A stretch of DNA of 36,949 nucleotides from Acidimicrobiales bacterium (GTDB lineage: Bacteria > Actinomycetota > Acidimicrobiia > Acidimicrobiales > VFJN01): the NCBI GenBank assembly GCA_035316325.1, contig DATHJB010000123.1, positions 1 through 36,949 on the forward strand, given 5' to 3'. A program made the position numbers and the translations under genes. Numbering within the stretch: position 1 is the first letter of the stretch; every line of letters begins with the position of its first letter. Below are positions 7,750 through 36,949 of the stretch, piece by piece. Under the pieces are notes generated by a model. The model worked only from the letters and a program-made list of their open reading frames with translations, made no database searches and was not told where the DNA came from.

Positions 7750-7770
7750 CGACCACAAGAGGAGAAATGC

Positions 7771-8922: not shown

Positions 8923-8973
8923 CTCAGCAAACGGTTGACGGGGTGACAAGTGGCCGTCCGCGGTGTCGTTGAC

Positions 8974-9003
8974 TTGACACTGCGTTCAGTAGATGATCAG
9001 ATC
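8974..9003 (+). promoter_or_regulatory. Promoter with embedded operator motif (site A)
   Basis: TTGACA (8974-8979) serves as -35; TCAGAT (8997-9002) lies 17 bases on. A second reading uses TTGACT (8969-8974) with GATGAT (8992-8997), also 17 apart. The spacer holds ACTGCGTTCAGT (8979-8990), an ACTG-N4-CAGT dyad. The same sequence, with few changes, is found before 17183, before 11757 and at the TetR start at 10765. A repressor bound here would block RNA polymerase. It drives the LLM gene at 9056. Confidence 0.6.
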
Positions 9004-9055
9004 GTCTACGAATCGTCGAGCGCCTTCGCGGCGCGGTGCTGGAAGGTGTGCCCTG

Positions 9056-15080: not shown

Positions 15081-15868
15081 CCCCGCGAACGATGCGCGAC
15101 ATCACCACCACGTGCACCGACGGCGTCGCCGAGATCGTGTTCTGCCGGCCGCCCGTGAACGCCACCGACGAGCAGTCCTGGACCGAGATCGCCGCCGCCT
15201 TCACCGCCCTGCGAGACGATCGGGACGTCCGGGTCGCGATCCTCACGGCCTGCGGTTCCAGGGCGTTCATGGCCGGCCAGGACCTCCGCAGCGATCCCTT
15301 CTCGATGGACGGCAAGGCCCCGTCGCGCCTCGTCGACCCCGGGAGCGTCGTCCGCGACGCCATGTGGGCGGTGTACGACTGCGCGGTCCCCGTGGTGGCG
15401 GCCGTCAACGGCCCTGCCATCGGCGGCGGGCTGGCGCTGGCCGCGCTGTGCGACATCATCGTGGCCTCGGACACGGCGACGTTCGGCACGACGGAGATCA
15501 ACGTCGGGCTGCTGGGTGCCAGCGCCCAGCTCACCCGGCTGGTCGGCACCTACCGGGCCCGGGAGATGTTCCTCACCGGGAAGGTGGTGTCGGCCCAGCA
15601 GCTCGCCGACTGGGGCGCCGTGAGCCGCGTCGTGCCGCCGGACGAGCTCATGGCGGAAGCGCGGGCGATCGCGTCCGATCTCGCCGCCAAGAGCCCGATC
15701 GCCCTCCGGCTGGCCAAGGAGTCGCTGAACCGGGTCGAGGGCCTCCCCCTCAAGGACGCCTATCGCCTCGAACAGGACTACACGACGCGCCTACGCACGT
15801 TCGAGGACGCCGCGGAGGCGACACGGGCGTTTCTCGAGAAGCGTCCACCCACGTGGCGCTGGCGCTAG
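15077..15868 (+). CDS. Crotonase-family (enoyl-CoA hydratase/isomerase) protein with altered active site
   Basis: 263 aa. Crotonase fold with oxyanion-hole regions AFMAGQDLR (63-71) and NGPAIGGGLALAALCDII (111-128). Canonical hydratases use two Glu, one after GGG and one in the later PE motif. Here the first is Ala (A120 in GGGLALAAL), while the second is kept (E140 in TTEINVG). One-Glu members include isomerases, dehalogenases and hydrolases, so simple hydratase activity is doubtful. The GTG at 15077 overlaps the previous stop; ATG 15092 is an alternative start. Confidence 0.85.
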   Translation: MTPRTMRDITTTCTDGVAEIVFCRPPVNATDEQSWTEIAAAFTALRDDRDVRVAILTACGSRAFMAGQDLRSDPFSMDGKAPSRLVDPGSVVRDAMWAVYDCAVPVVAAVNGPAIGGGLALAALCDIIVASDTATFGTTEINVGLLGASAQLTRLVGTYRAREMFLTGKVVSAQQLADWGAVSRVVPPDELMAEARAIASDLAAKSPIALRLAKESLNRVEGLPLKDAYRLEQDYTTRLRTFEDAAEATRAFLEKRPPTWRWR

Positions 15869-18778: not shown

Positions 18779-18795
18779 AAGGCGATGCTGTCACC

Positions 18796-20574: not shown

Positions 20575-21405
20575 ATGCAGCTTGAGCGCCACGACCTCGA
20601 CATCCGCGGCCTGCCGACGGTCTACCGAGGAGGTTCCGGTCGACCGCTCGTCTTCCTCCACACGGCCGGTGGACTGCAACCGGACAACCCGTTCCTCGTC
20701 CGGTTGTCCGAGGAGTTCGAGGTGATCGCCCCGCTCGCTCCCGGGTTCCGCGACCTGGGCGAGCTGGACGACATCCTCGACGTGCGCGACCTCGCCCTCC
20801 ACTACGACGACGTCTTCGAGTCGCTCGGTCTCGAGCAGGCCCTCGTCGTCGGCTACTCCTTCGGCGGGATGGTCGGCGCCGAGCTCGCTGCCCACTACCC
20901 CAAGCGCGTCGCCGACCTGGTCCTGATCGCACCGGTCGGGCTCTGGCTCGACGAGCACCCGACGGCCGACCTCTTCGCCACGCCGGTCGTCGAGCTCGAC
21001 GACCTCCTCTGGGAGGACCAGGAGGCGCGGGCCGCCTACGCGGCAGCCGCCGGGACCGGGGCGGCGCAGGGCAACGGCGCGTCGGCCGGCGCGGCGAGCG
21101 ACGGTGCCGACAACCGCGCCGACCACGTGGAAGCGCTGTTGGAGACGTCGCGGGGCCTGTCGGTCCTGGCGAAGTTCCTGTGGCCGATCCCCGACAAGGG
21201 CCTGTCCCGCCGACTCCACCGGGTCACCGCCCGCACGCTGATCCTCTGGGGCGAGGCCGACCGCCTGGTGCCCGTCGAGCACGCGGCCGTGTTCGAGCAG
21301 CTCATCGCCGATGCCCGCGTGACTACGTTCGCCGGGGCCGGCCACGCGCTGCCGCTCGAGCGCACCGACGAGGTGTTCGACACCATCCGGACGTTCCTCG
21401 AGTGA
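20575..21405 (+). CDS. Alpha/beta hydrolase
   Basis: 276 aa, minimal alpha/beta hydrolase. Nucleophile elbow GYSFGG (93-98) with S95, acid D229 in WGEADRLVP, and H257 in AGAGHALPLE complete the triad. An Ala/Gly-rich stretch (about 152-180) lies in the cap. The pattern resembles meta-cleavage-product or ester hydrolases. ATG at 20575 with AGGAGCG about 10 bases upstream. It follows the D-aminoacylase by 30 bases and precedes the acyl-CoA synthetase. Not closely similar to the hydrolase at 15909. Confidence 0.88.
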   Translation: MQLERHDLDIRGLPTVYRGGSGRPLVFLHTAGGLQPDNPFLVRLSEEFEVIAPLAPGFRDLGELDDILDVRDLALHYDDVFESLGLEQALVVGYSFGGMVGAELAAHYPKRVADLVLIAPVGLWLDEHPTADLFATPVVELDDLLWEDQEARAAYAAAAGTGAAQGNGASAGAASDGADNRADHVEALLETSRGLSVLAKFLWPIPDKGLSRRLHRVTARTLILWGEADRLVPVEHAAVFEQLIADARVTTFAGAGHALPLERTDEVFDTIRTFLE

Positions 21406-21455
21406 CACCGCTGGCCGCCGCTTCGTCCGCGAGTCGAACCCAGAGGAGCAGCGAG

Positions 21456-22997
21456 TTGGAAGCGATCCCCCTGCCCGAGGACGGCGTGGTGTTCAGGAAC
21501 GTCCTGGAGCACTTCGGCCGGGTCACGCCGGACCGGGTCTGCGTCACCGACGTCGACGGCGAGGAGTGGACCTGGGCCGAGGCCGTCGCCGAGATGAACG
21601 CCTCGGCCGCCCGACTCGAGGAGCTGGTCGGTCAGGTACCCCGCATCGCCGTCATGCTCGGCAACGGCCGCGACTGGCTCCGCGCCTGGTGGGGCGCCGC
21701 GCGGCTCGGCATCCCGGTGGTCGCGATCAACACCGCCCTGCGCGGCGAGCAGCTCCGCCACGTGTGCGCCGATGCCGAGGTGAGCCACGTCGTCACCACC
21801 GAGGCGATGGTCGCCCGGTTCAAGGAGCTCGACCTCGACATCCGGTGCATCGACCCCTCGCTGATCCGGGGCGAGCGCGGCGCCCGGCCCTCGATCGACC
21901 CCGTGGTCCACCCGTGGGACACCGCCGTCGTCAACTTCACCTCGGGCACGACGGGCCCGTCGAAGGGCGTCGTGACGACCCACCGCCACCTCTGCGCCGC
22001 GGCTGCACCGGCCTGGGGGCTGACCCACGACGACGTCGTGTTCGGCCACATGCCGCTGTACCACACCGGCGGCATGGCGCCCACCATGGCCGGCTGGAAC
22101 GCCGGTGGCCGGGTCGTCCTGCGCAGCCAGTTCAAGGCCTCGACGTTCCTCGACGAGCTGCGTGCCACCGGGTCCACGTTCGTGGTGCTCGTGAGCACCA
22201 TGGCGCCGGTGCTGTACGCGACGCCGGAGCGGCCCGACGACGCCGACAACCCCCTGCGGAACGTCAGCATGAACCCGCTCCTCCCCGACGCCGAGGGCTT
22301 CATGAAGCGCTTCGGGATCGACTACCTCCAGGTCATGTACGGGATGACCGAACTGCCCCAGGCCACCCGCCACGGCTGGACCGGCGAGATCGACCGGCCG
22401 ACCACGGCCGGCCGCCTGTGCCCCGGGTTCGAGGCTCGTATCGTCGACGAGAACGACATGCCCGTGCCCACGGGCCAGGTCGGCCAGCTGGTCATCCGGT
22501 GCGACGAGCCCTGGACGATCGCCTACCAGTACCTGAACCGGCCCGACGCCACGGCGGCCGCCTGGCGCAACGGCTGGTTCCACACCGGCGACATGTTCAG
22601 CGTCGACGCCGACGGCTTCTACTACTTCGCCGACCGGGCCACCGATTCGCTGCGGCGCCGCGGCGAGAACATCTCGAGCTACGAGGTCGAGCGGGAGGTG
22701 CTCGCCCACCCGGCGATCAGCAAGGCGGCCTGCGTCGGCGTGGCGACCGAGCACGGCGACCACGACGTGAAGGTGTTCGTGGTCCGCGACCACGTCGACA
22801 TCGACCCGGTCGAGCTCGTCGCCTTCCTGGTGCCCCGCCTCCCGTACTACGCGGTCCCGCGCTACGTCGAGGTCGTCGACGACCTGCCGCTCACCCCGAC
22901 CGGCCGGGTCCGGAAGGACGTCCTGCGGGCGCAGGGCAACGGGCCGGCCACCTGGGACCGCGAAGCCGCCGGCATCGTCGTCCGGCGAGACGACTGA
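21456..22997 (+). CDS. AMP-binding acyl-CoA synthetase (CaiC-like)
   Basis: 513 aa adenylate-forming enzyme that activates a carboxylic acid to its CoA thioester. P-loop SGTTGPSKG (163-171), YGMTE (295-299), HTGD (376-379) and hinge DSLRRRGENISSYEVE are present. In the C-terminal motif the usual catalytic Lys after Gly appears to be Arg: PTGRVRKDVL (481-490), with a Lys three residues on (K487). The TTG at 21456 is preferred for AGAGGAG at 21442-21448; a GTG at 21402 overlapping the upstream stop would add 18 residues without conserved content. It links hydrolysis products to CoA chemistry. Confidence 0.87.
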   Translation: MEAIPLPEDGVVFRNVLEHFGRVTPDRVCVTDVDGEEWTWAEAVAEMNASAARLEELVGQVPRIAVMLGNGRDWLRAWWGAARLGIPVVAINTALRGEQLRHVCADAEVSHVVTTEAMVARFKELDLDIRCIDPSLIRGERGARPSIDPVVHPWDTAVVNFTSGTTGPSKGVVTTHRHLCAAAAPAWGLTHDDVVFGHMPLYHTGGMAPTMAGWNAGGRVVLRSQFKASTFLDELRATGSTFVVLVSTMAPVLYATPERPDDADNPLRNVSMNPLLPDAEGFMKRFGIDYLQVMYGMTELPQATRHGWTGEIDRPTTAGRLCPGFEARIVDENDMPVPTGQVGQLVIRCDEPWTIAYQYLNRPDATAAAWRNGWFHTGDMFSVDADGFYYFADRATDSLRRRGENISSYEVEREVLAHPAISKAACVGVATEHGDHDVKVFVVRDHVDIDPVELVAFLVPRLPYYAVPRYVEVVDDLPLTPTGRVRKDVLRAQGNGPATWDREAAGIVVRRDD

Positions 22998-23565: not shown

Positions 23566-24975
23566 GTGAGCACCCCGACCGACACCGTCGCGCGGGTCAG
23601 GGCACAGCTCGACCACCCGGTGATCGATGCCGACGGGCACCTGATCGAGTTCGTCCCCCTGGTCGAGGAGCTGGCCCACGAGGTCGGCGGCGGCGACCTC
23701 GTCGACGGCTTCCGCCGCTGGCTGGCGCCCCCGACCGGTCCCCTGCGCTCGCGGCCCCGGCCGGGCAAGCGGGTCTTCTACTCGTTCCCCGGCGAGGCCC
23801 TCGACCGGGCCACCGCGACCGTCCCTCACCTGCTGTACGACCGGCTCGACGAGATCGGCATCGACTTCAGCATGCTGTACCCGACGGTGGGCCTCGGCGT
23901 GCTCGCCCTCCCCGACGCCGACCTGCGGGCGGGCCTGGCCCGGGCCCTCAACGCCTACTACGCGACGGTGACCGAGGGCCTGCGGGACCGCCTCGAACCC
24001 GTCGCCGTCATCCCGCTCGTGCACCCCACCGAGGCGCTCGAGCTCCTCGAGCACGCCGTGGTCGACCTCGGCTTCCGGGCCTTCGTGACCAGCGCGATCG
24101 TCCACCGCACCGAGCTGCGGACGGACGGATCGACGGCCCAGTGGATCGACACCGTCGGCCACGAGAGCGCGTACGACTACGACCCGTTCTGGCGGCGCTG
24201 CGTCGAGCTCCGCGTCGCCCCGAGCTTCCACATGGTCGGCTACGGCTGGGGCACGCGCACGTCCCGGACGAACTACGTCTACAACCACCTGGGCAACTTC
24301 GCGGCCGGCCAGGAGCCGGCCTGCCGATCGATCGTCATGGGCGGGGTCGCGGCGCGGTTCCCCGAGCTCAGCTTCTCGTTCCTCGAAGGGGGCGTCGCCT
24401 GGGCGTGCCAGCTGTTCGCCGATCTCGTCGGGCACTACGGGAAGCGCAACCGCGACGCCATCGGGTCGCTCGATCCGGGCGGGGTCGACCTCGACCGGTT
24501 CGACGACCTCTTCCGGCGCCATGCCCGGGGCCGCCTGGCCGCGCACCGGCTCGGGCGCGACGGGGTGCTCTTCGGGCGGGGAGCGGTCGCGGAGGACCCC
24601 GCCAGCATCGACGACTTCGCCGAAGCGCGGATCACCGGGATCGACGACATCGTGCGCATGTTCACCACGCAGTTCAGCTTCGGCTGCGAGGCCGACGACC
24701 CGCTGAACCGGCTGGCGTTCGACCGGGGGCTGAACCCGGGGCACACGCAGCTGCGGGCCATGTTCGCCTCCGACATCGGGCACTGGGACGTGCCCGACAT
24801 GCGCGGCGTGCTCCCCGAGGCCTACGAGGCGGTCGACGAGGGCGTGCTGTCGGCGGAGGACTTCCGCAAGTTCACCTACGAGAACGCCTGGCGCACCCTG
24901 ACCGCCGTCCGCCCCGACTTCTTCGCGCCGACGGCCATCGCCGGCGCGGCCGCGCCCCTGGAGGCCGTCCGATGA
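23566..24975 (+). CDS. Amidohydrolase-2 family metal-dependent hydrolase
   Basis: 469 aa. The first-strand motif VIDADGH (19-25) is in the metal-ligand position. PSFHMVGYGWG supplies a candidate His, and MFASDIGHWDVPDM contains the late-strand Asp. It is about 90 residues longer than the paralogues at 7771 and 24972, and diverges from them, so it probably has a different substrate. The GTG at 23566 is one base after the SnoaL stop. The stop overlaps the next ATG (ATGA), coupling it to a second amidohydrolase. Confidence 0.85.
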   Translation: MSTPTDTVARVRAQLDHPVIDADGHLIEFVPLVEELAHEVGGGDLVDGFRRWLAPPTGPLRSRPRPGKRVFYSFPGEALDRATATVPHLLYDRLDEIGIDFSMLYPTVGLGVLALPDADLRAGLARALNAYYATVTEGLRDRLEPVAVIPLVHPTEALELLEHAVVDLGFRAFVTSAIVHRTELRTDGSTAQWIDTVGHESAYDYDPFWRRCVELRVAPSFHMVGYGWGTRTSRTNYVYNHLGNFAAGQEPACRSIVMGGVAARFPELSFSFLEGGVAWACQLFADLVGHYGKRNRDAIGSLDPGGVDLDRFDDLFRRHARGRLAAHRLGRDGVLFGRGAVAEDPASIDDFAEARITGIDDIVRMFTTQFSFGCEADDPLNRLAFDRGLNPGHTQLRAMFASDIGHWDVPDMRGVLPEAYEAVDEGVLSAEDFRKFTYENAWRTLTAVRPDFFAPTAIAGAAAPLEAVR

Positions 24976-26249
24976 AGGTCCTCGGCAAGGGTGCGACCCC
25001 GGGCCGGCGGCAGGAGCGGGGCGCGGTGACGTTGCTGCCCCGCCCGGCGGCCCGGCCGGTGTTCTGCCCGGTCATCTCCGTCGACGACCACCTCGTGGAG
25101 CCGCCGACGCTGTTCGAGGGCCGGTTGCCCGCCCGGCTGCGCGACGCCGCCCCGCGCGTCGTCACCGACGACGACGGCCTGCCGCGGTGGCTGGTCGACG
25201 GTGAGCGGCTGCCGATCGGCATGCCCAACGCGCTCGTCGGCCGACCGATGGAGGAGTGGAACGTGGCCCCGGCGCGCTTCGACGAGTTCCTCCCGGGCGT
25301 CACCGATCCCCACGAGCGCGTCGCCGACATGGAGGTTGCCGGCATCTGGGCGTCGCTGCCCTTCCCGTCGATGGTGTGGGGCTTCGCGGGGTCCCGGTTC
25401 GCGGCGATGACCGACCGCGAGCTGGGCCTGGCGTGCCTCCGGGCCTACAACGACTGGCTGCTCGAGGAGTGGTGCGGGGCGGCCCCCGACCGGTTCATCC
25501 CCTGCCAGGTGGCCTGGCTGGCCGACCCCGACGGCGCCGCGGCGGAGGTGCGCCGCAACGCCGAGCGGGGCTTCCGAGCGGTCAGCTTCAGCGAGAACCC
25601 GGAGGGGCAGGGCATGCCCTCGATCCACAGCGGAGCGTGGGACCCCTTCTTCGCCGCCTGCGAGGAGACGGGCACGGTGGTCAACCTGCACGTCGGGTCG
25701 CGCGGCGCCATCACGACGGGCTCGACCGATTCGCCGGTCGAGGTGACCGTGGCCCTGTTCCCCGTCAGCGGCATCGTGGCGCTGACCGACTGGATCTTCT
25801 CCCGCGTGCCGCTGCGGTTCCCCGGGATCAAGGTCGCGCTGTCCGAGGGCGGTGCCTCGTGGGTCCCCATGGTCGTCGAGCGCCTGCGGCGCGCCTACCG
25901 TCAGGCGTCCGCATCCACCCACTGGAGCGCCGCCGACCCCGACCCGGTCGACGTGATGCACCGGAACTTCTCCTTCACCTCGATCGAGGACCCGACCGCG
26001 TTCCAGCACCTCGACGTGATCGGGGCCGGCAACGTGATGGTCGAGGTCGACTACCCGCACGGCGACAGCTCGTGGCCCGACACCCAGGCCCTGCTGGCGG
26101 CGCAGCTCGCCCACCTGCCGCCCGACGACGTCGCGCGGGTGTGCTTCGCCAACGCCGCGGCCCTCTACCATCACCCGGCACCCCCGCCGGACCGGATCGA
26201 GCGCTCGGAGATCGGCCCGGCCCTGACCGCAGCGGGCCCCGGCCGATGA
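24972..26249 (+). CDS. Amidohydrolase-2 family metal-dependent hydrolase
   Basis: 425 aa. Contains ISVDDHLVEPP (35-45; D38, D39, H40), the NLHVGSRG His, and VEVDYPHGDSSWP with the late Asp. It is a clear paralogue of the 7771 product: the two share SVDDHLVEPP, an RLPAR segment, GFAG, YNDWLLEEWCGAAPDR-type stretches and the YPHGDS end. It has an extra N-terminal tail of about 25 residues. The ATG at 24972 overlaps the preceding stop. It probably acts on a related amide or ring substrate in the same pathway. Confidence 0.86.
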   Translation: MKVLGKGATPGRRQERGAVTLLPRPAARPVFCPVISVDDHLVEPPTLFEGRLPARLRDAAPRVVTDDDGLPRWLVDGERLPIGMPNALVGRPMEEWNVAPARFDEFLPGVTDPHERVADMEVAGIWASLPFPSMVWGFAGSRFAAMTDRELGLACLRAYNDWLLEEWCGAAPDRFIPCQVAWLADPDGAAAEVRRNAERGFRAVSFSENPEGQGMPSIHSGAWDPFFAACEETGTVVNLHVGSRGAITTGSTDSPVEVTVALFPVSGIVALTDWIFSRVPLRFPGIKVALSEGGASWVPMVVERLRRAYRQASASTHWSAADPDPVDVMHRNFSFTSIEDPTAFQHLDVIGAGNVMVEVDYPHGDSSWPDTQALLAAQLAHLPPDDVARVCFANAAALYHHPAPPPDRIERSEIGPALTAAGPGR

Positions 26250-27901
26250 GCCTCGACGTCGTCATCCGCGGCGGGCTGGTCGTCGACGGCAGCGGCGCAG
26301 GGGCGGCGGCGGCCGACGTCGGCATCCACGCCGGGCGCATCACCGCGGTCGGCGATGTTCCCGACCAGGGCGCGACCGAGGTCGATGCCCACGGGCTCGT
26401 GGTGGCCCCCGGGTTCGTCGACATCCACACCCACTACGACGCCCAGGTCCTGTGGGACCCCCTCCTCACGCCTTCGTGCTTCCACGGCATCACGACGGTG
26501 GTCGCGGGCAACTGCGGCTTCGGCATCGCTCCGGCCCGCCCGGGGCACCGGGGCCTGCTGGCCCGGACGCTCGAGCACGTCGAGGGCATGAGCCTCGAGG
26601 CCCTGGAAGCGGGCATCGCCTGGGAGTTCGAGAGCTTCGCCGGCTACCTGGACGCCGTCGACCGGCGCGGGGTCGCCCTGAACTTCGCGGCCTACGCGGG
26701 CCACACCCCGCTGCGGATCTGGGTCATGGGCGCCGACGCCTACGAGCGGGAGGCGACGGCGGCGGAGATCGCCCGGATGGCGCAGGCGCTCGCCGAAGCC
26801 ATGGACGCCGGCGCCGCCGGGTTCGCCACCAGCCAGTCGCCGGGCCACGTCGGCGACGGCGGGCGGCCGGTGCCGTCGCGCCTGGCGTCGACGGAGGAGC
26901 TCCGCGCCCTGCTGGCCCAGGCGGGGGCCGAGCAGCACGGGGTCGTCGGGATCGTTCCGGGCGACCAGCTTCCCCACGCCGAGCTCTACGCCCTCCAGCC
27001 CGAGGTCGGTCGCCCGGTGACCTGGACGGCGCTGCTCACCTACCCCGACGGCCGCCAGGAGCGCATGCTCGACATCCACCGGCAGGGGAGCGCCACGGGC
27101 GCGGACGTCCGGCCCCAGGTGTCGGTGCGGCCGCTGTCGATGCAGTGTCGCATGGACCGTCCGTTCTTCTTCGACGGCCGGCCGAGCTTCGCCGCCCTCC
27201 ACCAGCAGGCGCCGGAGGAGCGGATCCGCCGCTACGGCGACCGTGTCTGGCGGGAGCAGGCCCAGGCCGAGCTCGATGCCGGGGTGCCCCGGATCCGGTG
27301 GGACTCGTTCGTCGTGGAGGAGACGCGGCAGGCGCACCTGGAGGGCCGGCCGCTCGGCGCGATCGCCGCCGAGCGCGGATCGACGCCTCTCGACGCGCTG
27401 CTCGACATCGCCCTCGCCGACGATCTCACCACGCGGGTCCGCTGCGTGATCGCCAACGACGACGTGGCCGGCATCGGTCGGCTGCTCGGCGAGCCCGGGA
27501 CCGTCGTCGGCCTCTCCGACGCCGGCGCCCATGCCAGCCAGCTGTGCGACGCCGGGTTCTCCTCGGAGCTCCTCGGCACCTTCGTCCGGGAGCGCAACGA
27601 GCTGTCGCTCGAAGCGGCCGTCCGCAAGCTGACCGGCGAGCCGGCAGATCTCTTCGGCTTCGGCGATCGCGGCTACCTCCGGCCCGGGTCCGCCGCCGAC
27701 CTCGTCGTGTTCGACCTCGCCACCATCGGCGTCGGCCCCCTGCGTCGCGTCCACGACCTCCCGGCCGGCGCCGACCGCCTCGTCGCGGACCGGCCGGCCG
27801 GCGTGCACGACGTGCTCGTCAACGGCCGCTTCCTGGTGCGCGACGGGTGCCTCGACGTCGACGCCCGTAGTGGGGTCGTCCTGCGGTCGGCCCGGACGTG
27901 A
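26246..27901 (+). CDS. D-aminoacylase / N-acyl-D-amino-acid deacylase-type amidohydrolase
   Basis: 551 aa. HTHYDAQVLWDP (61-72; H61, H63) and AGNCGFGIAP with C90 are the family metal and cysteine motifs. LSDAGAH is the late-strand Asp/His region, and SAADLVVFD closes the beta-sandwich. It is a paralogue of the 18796 product, with long matching blocks around the first metal motif. The ATG at 26246 overlaps the upstream stop (ATGA), and the stop overlaps the next GTG. Two such enzymes in one operon suggest two related amide substrates or two steps. Confidence 0.87.
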   Translation: MSLDVVIRGGLVVDGSGAGAAAADVGIHAGRITAVGDVPDQGATEVDAHGLVVAPGFVDIHTHYDAQVLWDPLLTPSCFHGITTVVAGNCGFGIAPARPGHRGLLARTLEHVEGMSLEALEAGIAWEFESFAGYLDAVDRRGVALNFAAYAGHTPLRIWVMGADAYEREATAAEIARMAQALAEAMDAGAAGFATSQSPGHVGDGGRPVPSRLASTEELRALLAQAGAEQHGVVGIVPGDQLPHAELYALQPEVGRPVTWTALLTYPDGRQERMLDIHRQGSATGADVRPQVSVRPLSMQCRMDRPFFFDGRPSFAALHQQAPEERIRRYGDRVWREQAQAELDAGVPRIRWDSFVVEETRQAHLEGRPLGAIAAERGSTPLDALLDIALADDLTTRVRCVIANDDVAGIGRLLGEPGTVVGLSDAGAHASQLCDAGFSSELLGTFVRERNELSLEAAVRKLTGEPADLFGFGDRGYLRPGSAADLVVFDLATIGVGPLRRVHDLPAGADRLVADRPAGVHDVLVNGRFLVRDGCLDVDARSGVVLRSART

Positions 27902-28932
27902 GCGGCGTGAGCGGTCCACCGGAGCTGCGCTTCGGCGCCTTCGTCCCCCAGGGCTTCATGCTCGAGCTCGGCGACGTGCCGGTGGCCGACCTCTGGCGGG
28001 TCAACGTCGAGCACGCCCGCGCGATCGAGGAGCTCGGGTTGGACGGGCTGTGGGTGAGCGATCACGTCCACAACGCCCCGTGGATCGACCACGGCCGGCC
28101 GCCGGGCACGCCGAAGCGCAGCACCCCGGTGCTCGAGTGCTGGTCGCTGCTGGCCGGGCTCAGCCAGCACACCTCGCGGATCAGGCTCGGACAGCTCGCC
28201 ACGTGCAACTCGTTCCGCCCACCCGCGCTGCTGGCCAAGATCGCCGCGACCGTCGACCACATGAGCGGCGGCCGGATCGACCTGGGTCTCGGCGCCGGCT
28301 GGTTCGAGCGGGAGCACCTCGGTTACGGCGTCCCGTTCCCGGGGGCGCGGACTCGCATCGAGATGCTGGGCGAGGCGGTCGAGATCATCCGACTCCTGTG
28401 GAGCGAGCCCGAGGTGACCTTCAGCGGTTCGCACTACACGATCGACCGCGGCCGCTGCGACCCGAAGCCGCTGCAGGCCCGGGTGCCGCTCGTCATCGGC
28501 GGGTCGGGGCCGACCACGCTCGGCATCGTGGCCGCCCGCGCCGACACCTGGAACTACGTGGGCTCCCTCGACGACCTGCCGGCGACCAAGGCGAAGCTGG
28601 AGGCGAGGTGCGACGCCGCCGGCCGGCCCTTCGAGGAGATCAGGATCAGCTGGTTCGAGACGGGCATCGTGATCCGCCGCGACGAAGACGAGGCCCGCCG
28701 CATCGTCGAGGACCTGCGCGCCCGCCGCGGCATCCCCGAGTTCCGTTCCTGGCTCTGGGGAACGCCGGCGAAGGTGCAGGACGCCATGGGCGAGTTCGTG
28801 GAGCTCGGCGTCAGCGAGCTCGTGCCGCAGTTCGGCGACCACCCCGACACGACCTCGCTCGAGCTGTACGCCACCGAGGTCGTCCCCGGGCTGCGCCCCA
28901 CGACAACCGCGGAACCCGGGGGCCGACGATGA
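27898..28932 (+). CDS. LLM-class oxidoreductase, probably F420-dependent
   Basis: 344 aa luciferase-like TIM barrel. RFGAFVPQGF opens the barrel; WVSDHVHNAPW (52-62) and HMSGGRIDLGLGAGWFEREH (121-140) followed by YGVPFP are typical of actinobacterial probable F420-dependent members. GTG 27898 overlaps the previous stop (GTGA); a second GTG at 27907 is a possible start. It overlaps the next LLM gene by four bases. Confidence 0.88.
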   Translation: MSGVSGPPELRFGAFVPQGFMLELGDVPVADLWRVNVEHARAIEELGLDGLWVSDHVHNAPWIDHGRPPGTPKRSTPVLECWSLLAGLSQHTSRIRLGQLATCNSFRPPALLAKIAATVDHMSGGRIDLGLGAGWFEREHLGYGVPFPGARTRIEMLGEAVEIIRLLWSEPEVTFSGSHYTIDRGRCDPKPLQARVPLVIGGSGPTTLGIVAARADTWNYVGSLDDLPATKAKLEARCDAAGRPFEEIRISWFETGIVIRRDEDEARRIVEDLRARRGIPEFRSWLWGTPAKVQDAMGEFVELGVSELVPQFGDHPDTTSLELYATEVVPGLRPTTTAEPGGRR

Positions 28933-29807: not shown

Positions 29808-29820
29808 CCGCGGTCAGCGG
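29801..29820. terminator. Perfect 20-base palindrome spanning two convergent stop codons
   Basis: CCGCTGACCGCGGTCAGCGG reads identically on both strands. It contains the plus-strand stop TGA (29805-29807) and the minus-strand stop (29814-29816); both genes end CGC-TGA. As RNA it could form an 8-bp stem with a CGCG loop. No T-run follows on either side. It may be a bidirectional terminator or a protein-binding site. Confidence 0.55.
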
Positions 29821-30587
29821 TACGTGGGCGGGCGCTTGTCGCCCGAGGGGAGATGCGGCGGCTGGTTGCCGATGTGCGTGTAGGCCAGTGCGTTCTGCAG
29901 GCCGACGGTGTGCAGCATGTCCAGCGACTCCCAGATGGCCCGGATGGTGCCCTGGATCGCCTTGGGGTTCCGCGCCGCGATCGAGGTGGCGATCTGCCGC
30001 GCCCGGGGGCGTAGGTCGGCGCGGGCCACGACCTCGGTCACGAGACCGAGCCGCAGAGCCGTCTCGGCCGTGATGCGCTCGTCGTTGCCCATCAACGCCC
30101 AGCGCAGCACGTCGCCGAGCGGCACTCCCCGCCACAGCATCCCGATCGGCTCGACGGCGGAGACGATGCCCACGTCGGCGTGGGGGTCGAAGAACTCGGC
30201 GTCATCCGAGCAGATGACGATGTCCGCCTCGTTGATGAAGTACTGCCCACCGCCGGCGCACAGCCCGTGGACCGCGGCCACGACGGGCTTCCACACCTTG
30301 TGGTGGAGCTTCGGCGACAGCATCGTCCCGGGGTCGAAGCTGTTCCACACGTTGTCCTTGAGGAACCACCGACTGCCGCCCTTGACGTCGACACCCGTGG
30401 AGAACGCCCGCTCGCCGTTGGCCTGGAGAACGGCGACGTGGATGTCGTCGTCGTCACGAACGGTCGCCCACGCGTCGGCGATGTCCCGGGCCATGGCCTC
30501 GTTGAAAGAGTTGAGGGCCTCGGGCCGGTCCAGCGTGATCGTCGCCACGTGGTCCTCGACCTCGAAGCTGACGGCCTCGAGCTCCAT
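29814..30587 (-). CDS. Crotonase-family protein lacking both catalytic glutamates
   Basis: 257 aa. Crotonase fold: VATITLDRPEALNSFNEAM (14-32), oxyanion region AFSTGVDVKGG (61-71), and GLCAGGGQYFINEADIVI (108-125). The two Glu of canonical enoyl-CoA hydratases appear replaced by Y116 (after GGG) and H136 (in FFDPHADVG). It is therefore unlikely to be a simple hydratase; isomerase, hydrolase, lyase or dehalogenase activity is possible. ATG at 30587 with GAGGAGG just upstream on the minus strand. It follows the P450 gene by 11 bases, so the two form an operon. Distinct from the crotonase at 15077. Confidence 0.87.
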   Translation of the reverse strand: MELEAVSFEVEDHVATITLDRPEALNSFNEAMARDIADAWATVRDDDDIHVAVLQANGERAFSTGVDVKGGSRWFLKDNVWNSFDPGTMLSPKLHHKVWKPVVAAVHGLCAGGGQYFINEADIVICSDDAEFFDPHADVGIVSAVEPIGMLWRGVPLGDVLRWALMGNDERITAETALRLGLVTEVVARADLRPRARQIATSIAARNPKAIQGTIRAIWESLDMLHTVGLQNALAYTHIGNQPPHLPSGDKRPPTYR

Positions 30588-30598
30588 CGTCGTCCTCC

Positions 30599-31837
30599 TC
30601 ACGGGTGCACGTGGAGGTGCTCGACCGAGCGGAAGAGCGCGTTGGGCGAGTAGGCCAGGGGCCGGCCCGGCACGAGGTGCATCTCGGGCGTGAGCTCGGT
30701 CAGCAGCTCGAGGGCGATGCGCAGCTCCATCCGGGCCAGCGGTGCGCCCAGGCAGAAGTGCACGCCCCGGCCGAAGGCGAGGTGCTCGCCGGCGTTGGAC
30801 CGCCTGACGTCCAACGCGTCGGGCTCGGGGAAGTGCGCCGGGTCGTGGCCCGCGGCGGCGAAGAGCAGGACGAGTCTGGCCCCGGCCGGAACCGGGGTAC
30901 CGCCGATCTCGGTGTCGACGGCGGCCGTCCGGCGGTGGCCGAGCACCGGACCGTCGAAGCGCAGCGACTCCTCGACCGCGTCGGGGACCAGCGCCGGGTC
31001 CTGTACCAGGAGGTCCCACTGGTCGCGGTGGGTGAGGAGGTGGCGCAGAGCGTTGCCCATGGCGTTGGTGGTCGAGTCGTGCCCGGCGAGGGCCATCGAG
31101 TACACGATGTTCACGACGTCGTCGCCGGTGACCACATCGGGGTGCTCGTCGTGGTAGCGCAGCAGGTCGCTGGTGAAGTCGTCCCGGCGGGCCGCGTCAC
31201 GATCGGCGACGAAGTCCTCGGCGTAGCGCCAGAAGGCCGTGACGTTGTGGGCCACCCGGACCTGGTCGTCGGCCGGGAGGCGGCCGTAGGTGAACAGCAC
31301 CCGGCCCGCCGACCAGGCCTTGACCTGCTCGAAGTCGGACTCGGGGATGCCGAGCAGGCTCAACCCGGCCCACCCGGGGAGCGGGAACGTCAGGGCGGCG
31401 ACGAGGTCGGCCTCGTCGCCGCCGACGATCGCTTCGACGAGCCCACGGGCGTAGGACCGCACCTCGGGTTCGAGCGCCCGCAGCCGCCGCGGCGACATGC
31501 AGGCCAGGACCGCCTTGCGCATGGGCGCGTGCCGGGGCGGGTCGGCGTTGTTGAGCGTCGGCACCCGCTTGTAGCCGTGCTCCCTCAGGACGCGCTGCGC
31601 TTCGTCCACCGGTGGCCAGATGGGGGACGAAGCGTTCTCGGCGAGGAACGTGGTGCGGTCCAGCAGGCAGGCCTCGACATCCGCGTAGCGGGTCACGATC
31701 CAGTGGTCGAGGTCCCGGTCGTAGAACACGGGTGCCTCGTCCCGCAGCGCGGACAGCTGCGGGTAGGGGTCGACCAGGAAGCCCTGCTCCAACCAACCGA
31801 CACCCTCGGAGACCGGACACGCTCGGACGCCGTCCAC
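30599..31837 (-). CDS. Cytochrome P450
   Basis: 412 aa soluble bacterial P450 monooxygenase. I-helix AGHDST (251-256) carries the oxygen-activating acid/Thr. The ExxR motif is E290-R293 (EESLR), and the heme loop is FGRGVHFCLG (355-364) with ligand C362. It needs ferredoxin and reductase partners, and none is encoded in the window. The GTG at 31837 starts MDGVRACPVSEG. There is no strong ribosome site; a TACGGT 6 bases before it would fit a leaderless mRNA, but no -35 is clear. Operon with the crotonase; the product may be a hydroxylated acyl-CoA or its precursor. Confidence 0.93.
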   Translation of the reverse strand: MDGVRACPVSEGVGWLEQGFLVDPYPQLSALRDEAPVFYDRDLDHWIVTRYADVEACLLDRTTFLAENASSPIWPPVDEAQRVLREHGYKRVPTLNNADPPRHAPMRKAVLACMSPRRLRALEPEVRSYARGLVEAIVGGDEADLVAALTFPLPGWAGLSLLGIPESDFEQVKAWSAGRVLFTYGRLPADDQVRVAHNVTAFWRYAEDFVADRDAARRDDFTSDLLRYHDEHPDVVTGDDVVNIVYSMALAGHDSTTNAMGNALRHLLTHRDQWDLLVQDPALVPDAVEESLRFDGPVLGHRRTAAVDTEIGGTPVPAGARLVLLFAAAGHDPAHFPEPDALDVRRSNAGEHLAFGRGVHFCLGAPLARMELRIALELLTELTPEMHLVPGRPLAYSPNALFRSVEHLHVHP

Positions 31838-31892: not shown

Positions 31893-33476
31893 TTACGGCT
31901 CGGCGCAGGACCAGTTGGCCGCGTCGTTCACGTCGAGGGCGGCAGGGTTGTCGACGCCTCCGGCGAACACCGAGGCCTCGGGGTAGGGGCACAGCCGGAA
32001 CGACCGGCCGGGTGCGTCGGCGACCAGCGAGTCGGGCGCGTGGCCGTTCTCGACCCAGTCGACGATCGCCGACAGGGCCTGGTCCGGGACGTCGACCGGT
32101 CCGGGGCCGCCGCCGCAGTGGAGCAGCCCCGGTACGGGGAACAGGCGGGCGAACGAGTCGACGTCGCCTCGACGACGGATGTCGGCGATCCCGTCGTAGT
32201 ACTCGATCGTGTCGTTGATGGAGATCGCGTTGTCGGCGACGCCGTGCCAGATCAGCAGCTTGCCGCCGGCCCGCTCGAAGCGCGCCAGGTCGGCGGGATC
32301 GGCTTCACCCGAGGCCTGGTACACCCGATCGAACAGCTGGCGCCACTGGCGGACGTAGCCCCGGTCGTCGAAGCGGAACTGGGTGGTGAAGTCGTAGTCC
32401 GGCCCGAACAGACCCTTGCTGTAGGTGTCGAACACCGTGAAGCCGGCCGGAGCGGTCGTCGCCGTCCACGGCGGTGGAGTCAGACCGACCAGGAACGACG
32501 ACCAGCCGATGGGGTTGGCCAGGCTGAACCCCGGATAGCTCGCGCCGGGAGTGTCGAGGCCCCCGAGGACGATGTCGAGCAGCTCCAGCTGGGGCGGCGT
32601 GAAGATGCCGAGCGAGGCAGGGTCGAACGAGACCCGGCTGGGGTCCCAGATCAGTCCGTCGTCGGCGCCGTCGGCGTCGTCGAACTGCTCGACGACCGCG
32701 GCCTCGAGCTGGGCGAGCTGCTGCGGGGAGACCCAGGTGTCGGGGTTCTCCAACACGAGATCGGCGACCCGGCCGAAGAGCAGGATGTTCTGCGGATCGA
32801 TGCCCGGTGCACCCAGGATCACGCCGTCGAAGGTGTCCGGGTACGTGCTGGCCTCGGCGTTGCCCATGCGGCCGCCGCCAGAGCAACCGGAGATGTAGCT
32901 GAAGAGCTCGTCCTGTCGCCCCGACAGCCCGTAGAACGCCCGGGTGATCCGTTGCGTCGCGACCGCAGAGACGTGGACTCCCCGCTGCCCGTAGTCGAAG
33001 GCTTTGGTCCGGTCGATGGCGAACCGCCAGTCGATCCCCGGCGTGGGGCTGCCGCCGTCGGTTCCGGCGACGGCATAGCCCTCGCGCAACTGCGCATCCG
33101 GTGGTGGTGGCACGATCCCTGCCGACCCTCCGACACCTACGAAGAAGTACCGCTGCTCGAACCCCTCGGGCAGCGCCACCATGAAGTTGACGTGGTTGGG
33201 GTCGGGCCCCGGGCCCTGGGTCACGACGTAGCCATCGACCCGGCAGTACGAGACCGCGGGCGCCGCGGTCGTCATCTCCACCGCCGAGACGATCTCGACC
33301 GTCCGGGCATCCCGGGAGATCGGCCGGCCCGCGCGGCGCTGGATCTGCTCGACGTTGCAGTCGAGGCCGGTCCGATGGTGCCGGGGTTGCCCGGCGTCGG
33401 CCGCGGTCGCGACGACGACGATCGAAACGAGAGCGGTCGCTGCGAAGAGCGAACGCCGTACCGATGTCCCCCACAT
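31893..33476 (-). CDS. Secreted tannase / feruloyl esterase-family hydrolase
   Basis: 527 aa. A signal peptide (about 1-28: basic start, hydrophobic core, ATAADA cleavage region) sends it out of the cytoplasm. The CS-D-HC catalytic pattern of tannases and feruloyl esterases is complete: C198-S199 in SGCSGGGRMG, D415 in HGVADNAIS, and H453-C454 in LLHCGGGPGP; the two Cys normally form a disulfide beside the triad. SKGLFGPDYDF and RFDDRGYVRQW are in the family C-terminal part. Likely an esterase on aromatic esters. ATG at 33476 with GGGGGACG upstream. It stands alone, divergent from the Gfo/Idh/MocA gene and 55 bases from the P450 gene start. Confidence 0.9.
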   Translation of the reverse strand: MWGTSVRRSLFAATALVSIVVVATAADAGQPRHHRTGLDCNVEQIQRRAGRPISRDARTVEIVSAVEMTTAAPAVSYCRVDGYVVTQGPGPDPNHVNFMVALPEGFEQRYFFVGVGGSAGIVPPPPDAQLREGYAVAGTDGGSPTPGIDWRFAIDRTKAFDYGQRGVHVSAVATQRITRAFYGLSGRQDELFSYISGCSGGGRMGNAEASTYPDTFDGVILGAPGIDPQNILLFGRVADLVLENPDTWVSPQQLAQLEAAVVEQFDDADGADDGLIWDPSRVSFDPASLGIFTPPQLELLDIVLGGLDTPGASYPGFSLANPIGWSSFLVGLTPPPWTATTAPAGFTVFDTYSKGLFGPDYDFTTQFRFDDRGYVRQWRQLFDRVYQASGEADPADLARFERAGGKLLIWHGVADNAISINDTIEYYDGIADIRRRGDVDSFARLFPVPGLLHCGGGPGPVDVPDQALSAIVDWVENGHAPDSLVADAPGRSFRLCPYPEASVFAGGVDNPAALDVNDAANWSCAEP

Positions 33477-33630: not shown

Positions 33631-34755
33631 ATGGACCCGGAGACCGGAACCGGACCGCCCGTCCGCGTCGGGATCGTCGGCGTCGGTTGGGGATCGGTCG
33701 TGCAGGTCCCCGCCTTCCGGATGGTCCCGCAGTTCGAGGTCACCGCGCTGTGCTCGCAGCGGGAGGAGCGCGTGACGGCGGCGGGGGAGAAGCTGGGCAT
33801 CACCGACCTCAGCACCGACTGGCGGACGTTCGTCACCCGTGACGACCTCGACCTCATCTCGGTGTGCACGCCGGTCGACCTCCACCACGAGCAGGCCCTC
33901 GCCGCGATCGCGGCCGGCAAGCACGTGCTCGTCGAGAAGCCGGTCGGCATCGACAGCGGCGAGACGCGCAAGATGCTCGACGCCGCCGAGGCGGCTGACG
34001 TCCGCCACGCGGTGTGCTTCGAGAACCGCTGGGACCCGGGGCGGCTGCGGATGTGGGAGATGGTGCGCGACGGCCACGTCGGTCGGCCCTACCTGGCCCT
34101 GGCCCGCAGCGGCGCCGACTTCTGGCACCCGACCCGGGGCCTGCAGTCGGAGTGGATGTACCGGCGTGCGCACGGCGGCGGGTACCTCATGGGCATGGGT
34201 TCGCACGACCTCGACTTCCTGTGCGCCCTGTTCGGCGAGCCCGAAGCGGTGTGCGCCGACGTGCGGACCTCGGTCCCCACCCGCCCCCGGGCCGACGGCA
34301 GCACGCTCGAGGTCGACGCCGACGACACGTCGGTCGTGCTGCTGCGGATGCAGAACGGCATGCTCGCCAGCGTGGCGACGACCGCGGTCGCGCTGCAGCA
34401 GGACTTCCGGAGCTTCGAGGTGTTCGGCAGCGAGGGCTCGCTGTCGATGGACGGGTCGGTGATGGGGGAGCAGCCGGCCGAGATCCGCTCCGGTGCGGTC
34501 GGGCAGGACGACCTCGTGTCGATTCCCGGCAGCGACCGGATGCCGGCCAGCGGGCTGCCGCTCCCGGCTCGGCGCGCCGCCTCGGCGATCCGCTCGCTCG
34601 CCCTGCTGCTCGAGGACTGGGCGCCGGCGTTCTCCGCCGGGCCCGACGCCGCGTCGCCCCTGGTTCCCACACTGCACGATGGCCACCGCGTGCAACGGGT
34701 CGTCGATGCCGCCCGGCGCAGCAGCGAGGGTGCGGGGTGGGTCCCGGTCTCGTGA
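33631..34755 (+). CDS. Gfo/Idh/MocA-family NAD(P)-dependent oxidoreductase
   Basis: 374 aa. Rossmann domain with VGIVGVGWGS (13-22), VCTPVDLHHEQALAAIAAGKHVLVEKP (78-104; EKP is the family Lys/Pro motif), then GGYLMGMGSHDLDFLCALFGEP in the C-terminal domain, where the catalytic His usually lies. It oxidises or reduces a hydroxyl or carbonyl, often on sugars or cyclitols; substrate not known. ATG at 33631 with GAGGGGGA at about 33620-33627. Its stop overlaps the next GTG, so it is coupled to the DUF35 fusion and thiolase. Confidence 0.9.
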   Translation: MDPETGTGPPVRVGIVGVGWGSVVQVPAFRMVPQFEVTALCSQREERVTAAGEKLGITDLSTDWRTFVTRDDLDLISVCTPVDLHHEQALAAIAAGKHVLVEKPVGIDSGETRKMLDAAEAADVRHAVCFENRWDPGRLRMWEMVRDGHVGRPYLALARSGADFWHPTRGLQSEWMYRRAHGGGYLMGMGSHDLDFLCALFGEPEAVCADVRTSVPTRPRADGSTLEVDADDTSVVLLRMQNGMLASVATTAVALQQDFRSFEVFGSEGSLSMDGSVMGEQPAEIRSGAVGQDDLVSIPGSDRMPASGLPLPARRAASAIRSLALLLEDWAPAFSAGPDAASPLVPTLHDGHRVQRVVDAARRSSEGAGWVPVS

Positions 34756-35954
34756 CCGTGATCCAATCGATCGGCACCTACCTCCCACCGTGGGGCACAA
34801 CGGCGGCGCGCTGCGCCGGCCACGACGAGGACGTGGTCACGATGGCGGTCGCGGCCGGCCGCCGGGCCATGGGCTCGTCGCCCGCCGGCACGATCCGCTC
34901 CGTCGTCCTCGTCAGCCGGGACGTGCCCCTGCTCGAGGGCGGCAACGCGGCGCCACTGCTCGCCGGCCTGGGCGTGGATGCCGCCACCGAGGTGCGCGAG
35001 GAGCTCGGCGGCGCTCCGGCCGCGCTGGCAGCCGCGGCGGCGGCGCCGGCAGGCACGCTGGTCATCGGCGCCGACCTGGGACCCGCGGGGGCCGCCGCCC
35101 TCCTCCTCGGCGGCGCCCGCGGGGCGGAGCTCACCCTGGCCGGTCGGGTCAGCCGCAGCCTCCCGGTCGTCACCCGCGACGCGCACGGCGAGGTCACCGA
35201 CTACGCCGACCCCCGGCTGGCGCGAGAGCGGGGCGTCGGCGTGTCCCTCGAACGGGCCGGCCTGGCCGGCAAGGTGGCCGCGGTCGCCGGACTGGGTCAC
35301 AAGCTCGCAGCACCGCTCAGCGCCGGCGACCCTCCGGCGCTCCCCACGGTCGGCGCCAGCGCCGCCATCTTCGCCCTCGCGGCCGTCGCGGAGCGGGGCG
35401 GCGGCCGGATCCTGGCCGTGGAGCAGGCCACGGTTGCCATCGCCGACCTGGCCGGCGGCCCAGCGGTCCCAGCGGTCCCGGTGGCGCGGAACGAGCCGGT
35501 GCCGCTGCCGCCTCCGTCGGGCACCGCGACACCCGGGCCCGGCATCGCGATCTCCCTCGCCGCCTACGAGCGGGCCTTCGACGCCAAGCTGCGTCTCGCC
35601 GCCGCCCGCTGTGCGGTCTGCGGCTGCCTGTCGTTGCCGCCCCGGTACCGGTGTCTCGGGTGCGGGTCGGAGCAGCCGACCGAGCTGGTCGACCTACCTC
35701 GCGACGCCACGGTCTACAGCACCACGACGGTCCACGTCCCGGTCCCCAGCCTGGTCACGCCCTACTCGCTGGCCCTCGTCGATCTGGGTGGCAGCGGCGT
35801 CCGGCTCCTCGCCCACGTCACCGGCGCGCCGCCCGGGTCGGTGGCGATCGGCGACGCGGGCGACATGGTCCTCCGCCGGGTGGCCGTCCGGTCCGGCGTG
35901 CCCGACTACGGCTACGCGTTCCTGCCCCGCGAGCGCACGGAGGTCGCAGCATGA
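34752..35954 (+). CDS. HMG-CoA-synthase-like domain fused to DUF35 zinc-ribbon/OB-fold domain
   Basis: 400 aa. Residues 1-230 resemble a thiolase-fold HMG-CoA-synthase-like domain (IQSIGTYLPPW, GHDEDVVTMAVAAGRRAM, LLEGGNAAPLLAGLGV). The loop that should hold the nucleophilic Cys reads EELGGAPAALAAA (about 84-96); the only Cys before 287 is C21, so this domain is probably inactive. Residues 265-400 are DUF35: helix AISLAAYERAFDAKLRLAAARC, a zinc ribbon C287/C290/C301/C304, and an OB fold. DUF35 proteins scaffold or gate thiolases and related aldolases. GTG at 34752; ATGA overlap with the thiolase gene. Confidence 0.85.
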   Translation: MTVIQSIGTYLPPWGTTAARCAGHDEDVVTMAVAAGRRAMGSSPAGTIRSVVLVSRDVPLLEGGNAAPLLAGLGVDAATEVREELGGAPAALAAAAAAPAGTLVIGADLGPAGAAALLLGGARGAELTLAGRVSRSLPVVTRDAHGEVTDYADPRLARERGVGVSLERAGLAGKVAAVAGLGHKLAAPLSAGDPPALPTVGASAAIFALAAVAERGGGRILAVEQATVAIADLAGGPAVPAVPVARNEPVPLPPPSGTATPGPGIAISLAAYERAFDAKLRLAAARCAVCGCLSLPPRYRCLGCGSEQPTELVDLPRDATVYSTTTVHVPVPSLVTPYSLALVDLGGSGVRLLAHVTGAPPGSVAIGDAGDMVLRRVAVRSGVPDYGYAFLPRERTEVAA

Positions 35955-36949
35955 GGCGCGTCGCGATGGTGGGCGCCGGGATGACGCCGTTCGGCGAGCT
36001 CTTCGACCTCGGCGTGAAGGACATGCTCCCGATGGCGGTCAGCGAGGCGATCGCCCACGTCGACAAGGGCTTCGACCGCTCCGACATCCAGGCCGCGTGG
36101 TTCGGTGAGCTGGTCACCACCGACGGGTTCGCAGCGGGGATCCTCGCCGACTCCTGTGGCCTGCTCGACATCCCGGTCTCGCGGGTCGAGAACGCCTGCG
36201 CCACCGGCAACGACGCCGTGCGTCACGGGATGCTCGCGGTGGCCAGCGGGCTCTACGACGTCGTGCTCGTGGCCGGCGCCGACAAGGTCCGTGAGACCTC
36301 GACCCGCACCACCTTCTGGGACTGGATGGGGATGACCCGCGACATGGCGTGGGACTTCCCGCTCGGCCTCGTGGCTCCGGCCAACTTCGCACTGCACGCG
36401 GCGCGCTACCTGCACGAGTCGCCGGCCACGCGCGAGCACATGGCGATGGTCGCGGTGAAGAACCACCGGCACGGCGCCTCGAACCCCAAGGCGCAGCTGC
36501 GCTTCGAGATCACCGTCGAGCAGGTGCTCGACGCGCCGATGGTGGCCGAGCCGTTCGGCCTGTTCGACTGCACGCCGCAGAGCGACGGCGCGGCGGCCGT
36601 GCTGCTGGTCGGCGAGGAGGTCGTCGACCGCTACACCGATCGGCCGGTCTGGGTGCGGGGCGTCGGGCTGGGGGTCGACCGGGTCATGCACCAGCACAAG
36701 CCGGACATGACGACGTTCCCGCCCACGGTCAAGGCCGCCAGGCAGGCCTACGCGATGGCCGGCATCGGCCCGGCCGACGTCGACGTCGCCGAGGTGCACG
36801 ACTGCTTCACCACGGTCGAGCTGATCGACTACGAGGACCTCGGCTTCTGCGATCGGTTCGGCGCCGCCAAGCTGGTCGAGGCCGGGGACACGTCGGTCGG
36901 GGGACGCATCCCGGTCAACCCGAGCGGGGGGCTGAAGGCCAAGGGACAC
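35951..36949 (+). CDS. Thiolase-family acetyl-CoA acetyltransferase / lipid-transfer-type thiolase (3' end outside window)
   Basis: At least 333 aa, open to the window end. MRRVAMVGAGMTPFGELF is the standard opening of SCP-x/lipid-transfer-type thiolases. The active-site Cys is C83 in VENACATGNDAV, H283 lies in EVHDCFT, and the sequence ends in NPSGGLKAKGH, just before the last catalytic Cys/His region. Thiolases cleave 3-ketoacyl-CoA or condense acetyl-CoA; relatives paired with DUF35 proteins act as retro-aldolases. The ATG overlaps the DUF35-fusion stop, so the two probably form a complex. Confidence 0.9.
   Translation, partial: MRRVAMVGAGMTPFGELFDLGVKDMLPMAVSEAIAHVDKGFDRSDIQAAWFGELVTTDGFAAGILADSCGLLDIPVSRVENACATGNDAVRHGMLAVASGLYDVVLVAGADKVRETSTRTTFWDWMGMTRDMAWDFPLGLVAPANFALHAARYLHESPATREHMAMVAVKNHRHGASNPKAQLRFEITVEQVLDAPMVAEPFGLFDCTPQSDGAAAVLLVGEEVVDRYTDRPVWVRGVGLGVDRVMHQHKPDMTTFPPTVKAARQAYAMAGIGPADVDVAEVHDCFTTVELIDYEDLGFCDRFGAAKLVEAGDTSVGGRIPVNPSGGLKAKGH

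Follow-up and report, generated by a model that had tools for sequence, protein, structure and literature searches.

DUF35 domains have been described as scaffolds that hold thiolase-type complexes together (PMC12329534), and as early as 2010 DUF35 proteins were reported to be fused to members of the thiolase superfamily, phlABC being a case in which an active member is paired with an inactive one (PMC2954200). In the PhlABC complex, PhlA resembles 3-hydroxy-3-methylglutaryl-coenzyme A (CoA) synthase (HMG-CoA synthase, HMGCS), with Gly115 at the position of the nucleophilic Cys and Cys83 at that of the catalytic Glu, and only PhlC is catalytic (PMC6392133). Expression of the complete phlABC operon was required for active enzyme, and all three subunits contribute to the wall of a single continuous cavity, in which residues of PhlC alone touch phloroglucinol (PMC6392133). 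Here we describe a related gene pair at the right end of a contig of 36949 bases (C123) from an Acidimicrobiales genome (G000; 6.37-Mb, 244 contigs); the whole contig was analysed and is referred to as the window. The first gene encodes a shortened HMGCS-like domain fused to DUF35, the second a thiolase. The synthase half has lost all three catalytic residues, and the fusion is probably a non-catalytic synthase/DUF35 partner subunit that would build the complex of the adjoining thiolase, much like PhlA and PhlB joined in one chain.

Results

Loss of the catalytic residues in the synthase domain

The features of the locus are listed below, with the evidence for each in brackets.

34752-35954, + strand: pseudo-HMGCS-DUF35 fusion gene, GTG start, 400 amino acids (start matches relatives)
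34752-35543, + strand: shortened HMGCS-like domain at the N terminus, covering roughly residues 1-264 and lacking the catalytic residues (fold match and profile matches)
34917-34919, + strand: Arg56, in place of catalytic Glu82 (alignment; Arg in 23/23 clade members)
34998-35027, + strand: former nucleophile loop EELGGAPAAL, residues 83-92 (Ala88, 35013-35015, at the Cys114 position)
35286-35288, + strand: Ala179, in place of catalytic His238 (alignment)
35610-35663, + strand: DUF35 zinc ribbon, Cys287/290/301/304 (zf-ChsH2 and alignment)
35688-35855, + strand: DUF35 OB fold, OB_ChsH2_C, residues 313-368 (Pfam)
35951-36949, + strand: SCP2-type thiolase ended by the contig edge, with Cys83, HDC285 and GH333 present (open reading frame (ORF), Pfam, alignment)
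33631-34755, + strand: Gfo/Idh/MocA oxidoreductase (its stop overlaps the fusion start, GTGA)

Active-site positions were read from an alignment of 55 fusions (23 from the short clade to which the window fusion belongs, 32 long) with the archaeal HMGCS 6esq_I and the separate HMGCS L031. In the window fusion, Cys114, Glu82 and His238 (6esq_I numbering) are replaced by Ala88, Arg56 and Ala179, respectively. At the Cys114 position the short clade carries Ala (17), Gly (5) or Ser (1), and Cys occurs in 0/32 long fusions. Some long fusions, for example L032 and L071, have Gln there, a substitution known from decarboxylating ketosynthases. The Glu82 position is Arg throughout the short clade (23/23) and Thr (27), Ser (2), Ala (2) or Val (1) in the 32 long fusions, while that of His238 is Ala in 23/23 short forms and retains His in a single long fusion, L034. 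The alignment thus agrees with the original prediction, according to which the loop EELGGAPAAL had lost its Cys: Ala88 lies over Cys114 of 6esq_I. The alternative that C21 is a displaced nucleophile fails, as this position is Cys in 1/23 clade members, the domain has no invariant Cys across the clade, and Glu and His are gone too. Two other candidates were rejected: an apparent 4-residue deletion at the loop was an alignment artefact that vanished with more sequences, and L032 and L034 were no longer taken as catalytic once a better alignment had put Gln and Thr at their Cys site.

Additional loci gave the same picture. Matches were found in 26 and 62 plasmid records, of which six were opened and five aligned; the sixth, L113, was left out, the fusion being split into two ORFs in the record. 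Three of the plasmid fusions (L070-L072) add to the 55, and all three residues are absent from them. A second survey covered the class to which the Halieaceae locus L032 belongs (profile matches in 6/229 genomes), the phylum that includes the Thermoanaerobaculia locus L031 (43/199 genomes) and further loci. It comprised 40 loci, 22 fused and 18 with a separate HMGCS. The separate synthases have all three residues in 18/18 cases, and the fused ones keep Cys in 0/22, Glu in 0/22 and His in 1/22 (L093). As L073 repeats L032 and L075 repeats L031, the distinct total is 79 fusions (55 + 3 + 21), which are loci and not independent events, with Cys in 0, Glu in 0 and His in 2; all three residues are present in 19/19 separate controls, 6esq_I included, 18 of which come from one phylum. 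Survey rows returned without a locus, among them short matches without a DUF35 part, were left out. From these alignments, fusion to DUF35 looks like it goes with a dead synthase site, in a manner that resembles a rule.

Domains and predicted fold of the fusion

The C-terminal part is a DUF35 domain with an intact four-Cys ribbon, as had been proposed. OB_ChsH2_C scores 47.5 bits at residues 313-368 (Pfam cut-off 27.1), and Cys287, 290, 301 and 304 form the ribbon. The zf-ChsH2 match at residues 281-308 reached 21.8 bits with hmmscan, just below the cut-off of 23.2, and 25.5 bits in the genome search.

The N-terminal 264 residues gave no significant match in Pfam or NCBIfam, the only hint being an insignificant NCBIfam match to HMGCS (E 0.086, residues 22-59). 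A profile built from 18 relatives matches PhlA-type chains 9skh_A (1.3e-14) and 5m3k_A (2.5e-12) as well as archaeal HMGCS 6esq_I (3.7e-8). An AlphaFold2 model of the fusion was obtained with a mean predicted local distance difference test score (pLDDT) of 78.6, below 50 at residues 136-153 and 258-279, and a predicted template modelling score (pTM) of 0.62. In structural comparisons of the N-domain (residues 1-263), 6esq_I ranks first, with Z 21.7 in VIA-align, 258 aligned residues and a root mean square deviation of 3.5, followed by PhlA-type 9skh_A (Z 21.1) and 5mg5_A (Z 20.8) and by MucABC 9vbt_B (Z 20.4); Z values within 1 of each other count as ties. The HMGCS-like character attributed to this domain agrees with the predicted fold and is supported mainly by the profile.

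The adjoining thiolase

The thiolase ATG at 35951 overlaps the stop codon of the fusion by 4 nucleotides (nt) (ATGA). Pairing with a thiolase, which had been suggested for the window, is general in the fusions examined. A same-strand thiolase adjoins the fusion in 54/54 loci of the first survey, the window being the 55th. It starts at most 66 nt past the fusion in 53/54, counted from where the profile match to the fusion stops and not from the stop codon, and lies directly upstream in L034. In the second survey, a thiolase was found beside 21/22 fused and 18/18 separate HMGCS; for the fused L092, none was found in the stretch of DNA examined.

The contig ends within the gene, and the window thiolase is therefore cut off after Gly332-His333. 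It carries Cys83, HDCF and GH, the next residue being past the contig end; the thiolase of L015 has GHPPGAT. We take HDCF and GHP to be motifs of SCP2-type thiolases. The nucleophilic Cys is kept in 56/56 aligned thiolases, and the site of the window enzyme is apparently intact. HDCF is HDFF in six thiolases (L022, L026, L036-L039) and HDAF in L031. All six HDFF enzymes fall within one subgroup whose fusions lack the zinc ribbon, and the chemistry may differ there. The best match of the window thiolase is archaeal 6esq_A (208 bits), followed by BbsB (150), Ltp2 6ok1_A (125) and PhlC-type chains (up to 92).

The zinc ribbon of the DUF35 domain

The ribbon Cys residues retained by the window fusion are kept as a full set in 38/55 fusions. 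All four are gone in 12/23 short-clade members (L017-L020, L022, L026, L027, L033, L036-L039) and in 5/32 long fusions (L042-L045, L048). They are lost together, with 0 partial losses among the 55. The tree requires at least 3 changes in the zinc ribbon, or 4 with the zinc columns excluded; this and the tree below are quick ones that came with long-branch warnings. As judged from alignment and tree, the DUF35 zinc ribbon was lost repeatedly. The segments that replace the zinc Cys residues are partly alike in the short and long groups (Asp/Asn-x-x-Thr/Ser-Gly).

In three zinc-less members, OB_ChsH2_C still scores 44.0 (L017), 35.2 (L022) and 37.5 bits (L033), and zf-ChsH2 gives no match at E 0.01. 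The model of zinc-less L017 has a pLDDT of 82.0 and a pTM of 0.83. Foldseek with this model found only synthase-type folds among the 50 matches listed, and the DUF35 part of the zinc-less protein therefore rests on sequence. DUF35 domains can apparently lose the whole zinc site and yet stay conserved.

Distribution and selection

One scan returned 16 full-length relatives of the short form, from Nocardia, Rhodococcus, Aldersonia, Pseudonocardia, Frankia and actinobacterial metagenome-assembled genomes, and a Mycobacterium branderi plasmid carries another. In the phylum sample, in which at most 4 candidates were scored per genome, 6/396 genomes carry the short form, that of the window included; among genomes of the same family only the window's own does (1/7). 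Long fusions or separate HMGCS match in 39/246 genomes. The 23 sampled short fusions form one clade with a long stem and full Shimodaira-Hasegawa-like approximate likelihood ratio support (SH-aLRT 100).

The N-domain is under purifying selection: in 11 of 12 hand-chosen pairs, the ratio of nonsynonymous to synonymous substitution rates (dN/dS) is 0.13-0.47. Between the window and L015, dN is 0.073 for the thiolase and 0.392 for the N-domain.

The genome of the window holds further members of these families. A long HMGCS-DUF35 fusion on contig C84 (4232-5677; L011/L040) has Ser, Val and Ala at Glu82, Cys114 and His238, with a thiolase about 20 nt downstream, and another long HMGCS-DUF35 match lies at C182:16959-18314. 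The DUF35 zinc-ribbon domain scores above the family cut-off at 17 places in this genome, the one in the window included.

Genomic neighbourhood

The Gfo/Idh/MocA oxidoreductase gene is likely co-transcribed with the fusion gene. Close to this operon, a Tannase/feruloyl-esterase-like protein (31893-33476, - strand; Pfam Tannase, 224 bits) and a cytochrome P450 (30599-31837, - strand) are encoded. Elsewhere in the window we found an AMP-binding ligase (21180-22997), a MaoC-like ORF (12343-13197) and two enoyl-CoA hydratase-like ORFs (14510-15868 and, on the - strand, 29814-31019). The first 20 window ORFs were searched in Pfam, ten of them giving no family or perhaps being in a wrong frame, and ten others were scanned later. 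Luciferase-like monooxygenases and amidohydrolases (Amidohydro_2 and _3) lie at 6505-10114, 18286-20544 and 23566-28932, with parts of peptide-type ATP-binding cassette transporters.

Among the relatives, the M. branderi copy is surrounded by Mce genes, seven acyl-CoA dehydrogenase genes, short-chain dehydrogenases/reductases (SDRs) and a second DUF35/thiolase pair, and the Nocardia copy by a CoA transferase, SDRs and a second thiolase with a DUF35-like protein. Acyl-CoA dehydrogenases occur near L015 and the Frankia copies, the latter also having a ligase. In Rhodococcus opacus PD630, the neighbours of a long fusion, which the record divides into two ORFs, include ring dioxygenase and acyl-CoA synthetase genes.

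A further long fusion lies on plasmid p3 of Novosphingobium sp. ES2-1, typed as conjugative (L072:14001-15404), with Thr, Leu and Ser replacing the three residues. By annotation, its cluster has the gene order of the estradiol edc cluster as given in the available sections of PMC7793797 and PMC8700777, bar one extra small gene, and the fusion occupies the place of EGO55_13555. This edc gene is annotated as HMG-CoA synthase, and its authors could not place it in estradiol degradation (PMC7793797); the available sections of PMC12239570 and PMC8700777 give it no role either. Judging from gene order alone, EGO55_13555 may be a member of the dead HMGCS-DUF35 fusions.

Discussion

Since an inactive synthase stands beside a thiolase that looks able to work, the fusion is probably a structural partner and not an enzyme. 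A scaffold is the best reading because PhlA, which has neither the Cys nor the Glu, is still needed in PhlABC. The window combines the same two traits, a synthase without Cys and Glu and an adjacent thiolase with its nucleophilic Cys. The two halves of the fusion would take the places of PhlA and PhlB in PhlABC, and those of HMGCS and DUF35 in the archaeal complex. In this arrangement the thiolase would catalyse the reaction through Cys83 and be held by the OB fold; the dead synthase domain would serve to form the oligomer and to seal the cavity that the subunits share. Having both non-catalytic parts in one chain would fix their ratio at 1:1. Most likely, a bulky 3-oxoacyl-CoA, cyclic or aromatic, would be cleaved by thiolysis as part of a catabolic pathway. 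The catabolic neighbours seen in relatives argue for a reaction other than the CoA-free C-acylation of phenols by PhlABC.

Several observations weigh against this proposal. Searches with single sequences tie the N-domain only weakly to HMGCS, and in structural comparison generic KAS III-type chains (OleA, FabH) reach Z values of about 20, only 1-2 units under 6esq_I; fold alone therefore does not single out HMGCS. The predicted fold places the domain, in shortened form, in the HMGCS/KAS III group, within which it is mainly the sequence profile that favours HMGCS. Sequence change is much faster in the N-domain than in the thiolase (55% vs 88% identity between the window and L015), and the constraint on the N-domain is looser than expected for a surface that is mostly interface. 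The twelfth pair, L023/L024, has a dN/dS of 1.48, at a dS of 0.01. The thiolase of the window is truncated by the contig end. With respect to a catabolic pathway, none of the CoA genes of the window adjoins the fusion/thiolase pair, and the 30 window ORFs scanned, several of them perhaps in a wrong frame, include no recognised acyl-CoA dehydrogenase.

A different use of the fusion is possible, although we consider it doubtful: the emptied synthase pocket may now accommodate part of the thiolase substrate, either its bulky acyl chain or its CoA, with Arg56 binding an acidic group, which would make the protein a substrate-binding or specificity subunit. The uniform replacement of Glu82 by Arg in the short clade, not a random mix, points in this direction, as do purifying selection on the domain and the single cavity shared by PhlA, PhlB and PhlC (PMC6392133). 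Only PhlC residues contact phloroglucinol in that cavity, however, and with Thr at the Glu82 site in 27/32 long fusions the charge is not general.

It is improbable that the pair acts on steroid side chains as a retro-aldolase like Ltp2-ChsH2 or Sal-Shy. The original prediction had drawn this parallel, and the pairing of DUF35 with a thiolase stands. ChsH2 is a DUF35 relative of the fusion (6ok1_B, 37 bits), the M. branderi copy lies in a catabolic cluster with Mce genes, and six relatives have HDFF in place of HDCF. The parallel is weaker at the active site. CtSal uses Tyr302 and Cys304 in a YDCY motif and TcLtp2 a paired Tyr (PMC12329534); the aldolase residues were not found in the window thiolase, which keeps Cys83, HDCF and GH and has His283 where Tyr302 of Sal is read to fall. 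Moreover, Ltp2 is not its closest solved relative, 6esq_A being nearer.

It is very unlikely that the N-domain no longer has a function and is simply decaying. A relic could well evolve fast, shrink and lose its active site, as this domain has, but the open frame is conserved in 23 clade members from several genera, many residues are invariant, and pseudogene decay was rejected on these invariant residues and on the dN/dS below 0.5 in 11/12 pairs. Least credible of all is continued condensation of acyl-CoAs by the N-domain, Cys-independent or through a displaced nucleophile such as C21: the HMGCS-type fold is retained and Gln stands at the Cys site of some long fusions (L032, L071), but C21 is Cys in one clade member only, the domain has no invariant Cys, and Glu and His are lost.

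The non-catalytic partner remains the reading that we favour for the window, and a wider version of it can be put forward tentatively, with less confidence. HMGCS-DUF35 fusions might be a distinct and widespread class of gutted synthases serving catabolic thiolases, the synthase site being given up once both parts share a chain. The short clade would have rebuilt the emptied pocket, with Arg56, into part of the thiolase's site for a bulky acyl-CoA and made the zinc ribbon optional, and the edc synthase would be a member and the partner of its adjoining thiolase. A fused dead synthase would thus offer an answer for EGO55_13555. More generally, genes of catabolic clusters that are annotated as HMG-CoA synthase or OB-fold protein are, if fused to DUF35, probably non-enzymes, to be assayed together with the adjoining thiolase. 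In the literature consulted (titles and the starts of abstracts, mostly of papers outside subscription journals), we found neither a class of fused dead HMGCS-DUF35 proteins nor a loss of the DUF35 zinc site.

The kind of complex proposed here is known already; the fused, shortened form without an active site is new. The closest system, PhlABC (PpATase, the Friedel-Crafts acyltransferase of Pseudomonas protegens), consists of the same three parts, a dead synthase, a DUF35 protein and a catalytic thiolase. It differs in having three separate genes and a synthase chain of 362 amino acids, and in being biosynthetic and CoA-independent, whereas the window has one shortened chain. The archaeal complex of acetoacetyl-CoA thiolase, HMGCS and DUF35 (6ESQ/6ET9) has the same three folds, but its HMGCS is separate and active, with Cys114 and Glu82, while that of the window is fused and without both. 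BbsAB (benzoylsuccinyl-CoA thiolase), Ltp2-ChsH2, Sal-Shy and IpfDE also combine a thiolase-superfamily enzyme with a DUF35/OB-fold protein, and differ in that the available sections on them mention no HMGCS-like domain. Finally, the long HMGCS-DUF35 fusions (about 470-490 amino acids) share with the short form the domain order, the dead site and the adjacent thiolase, and differ from it in their longer synthase domain, in the Thr that most of them carry at the Glu site and in their separate branch of the tree.

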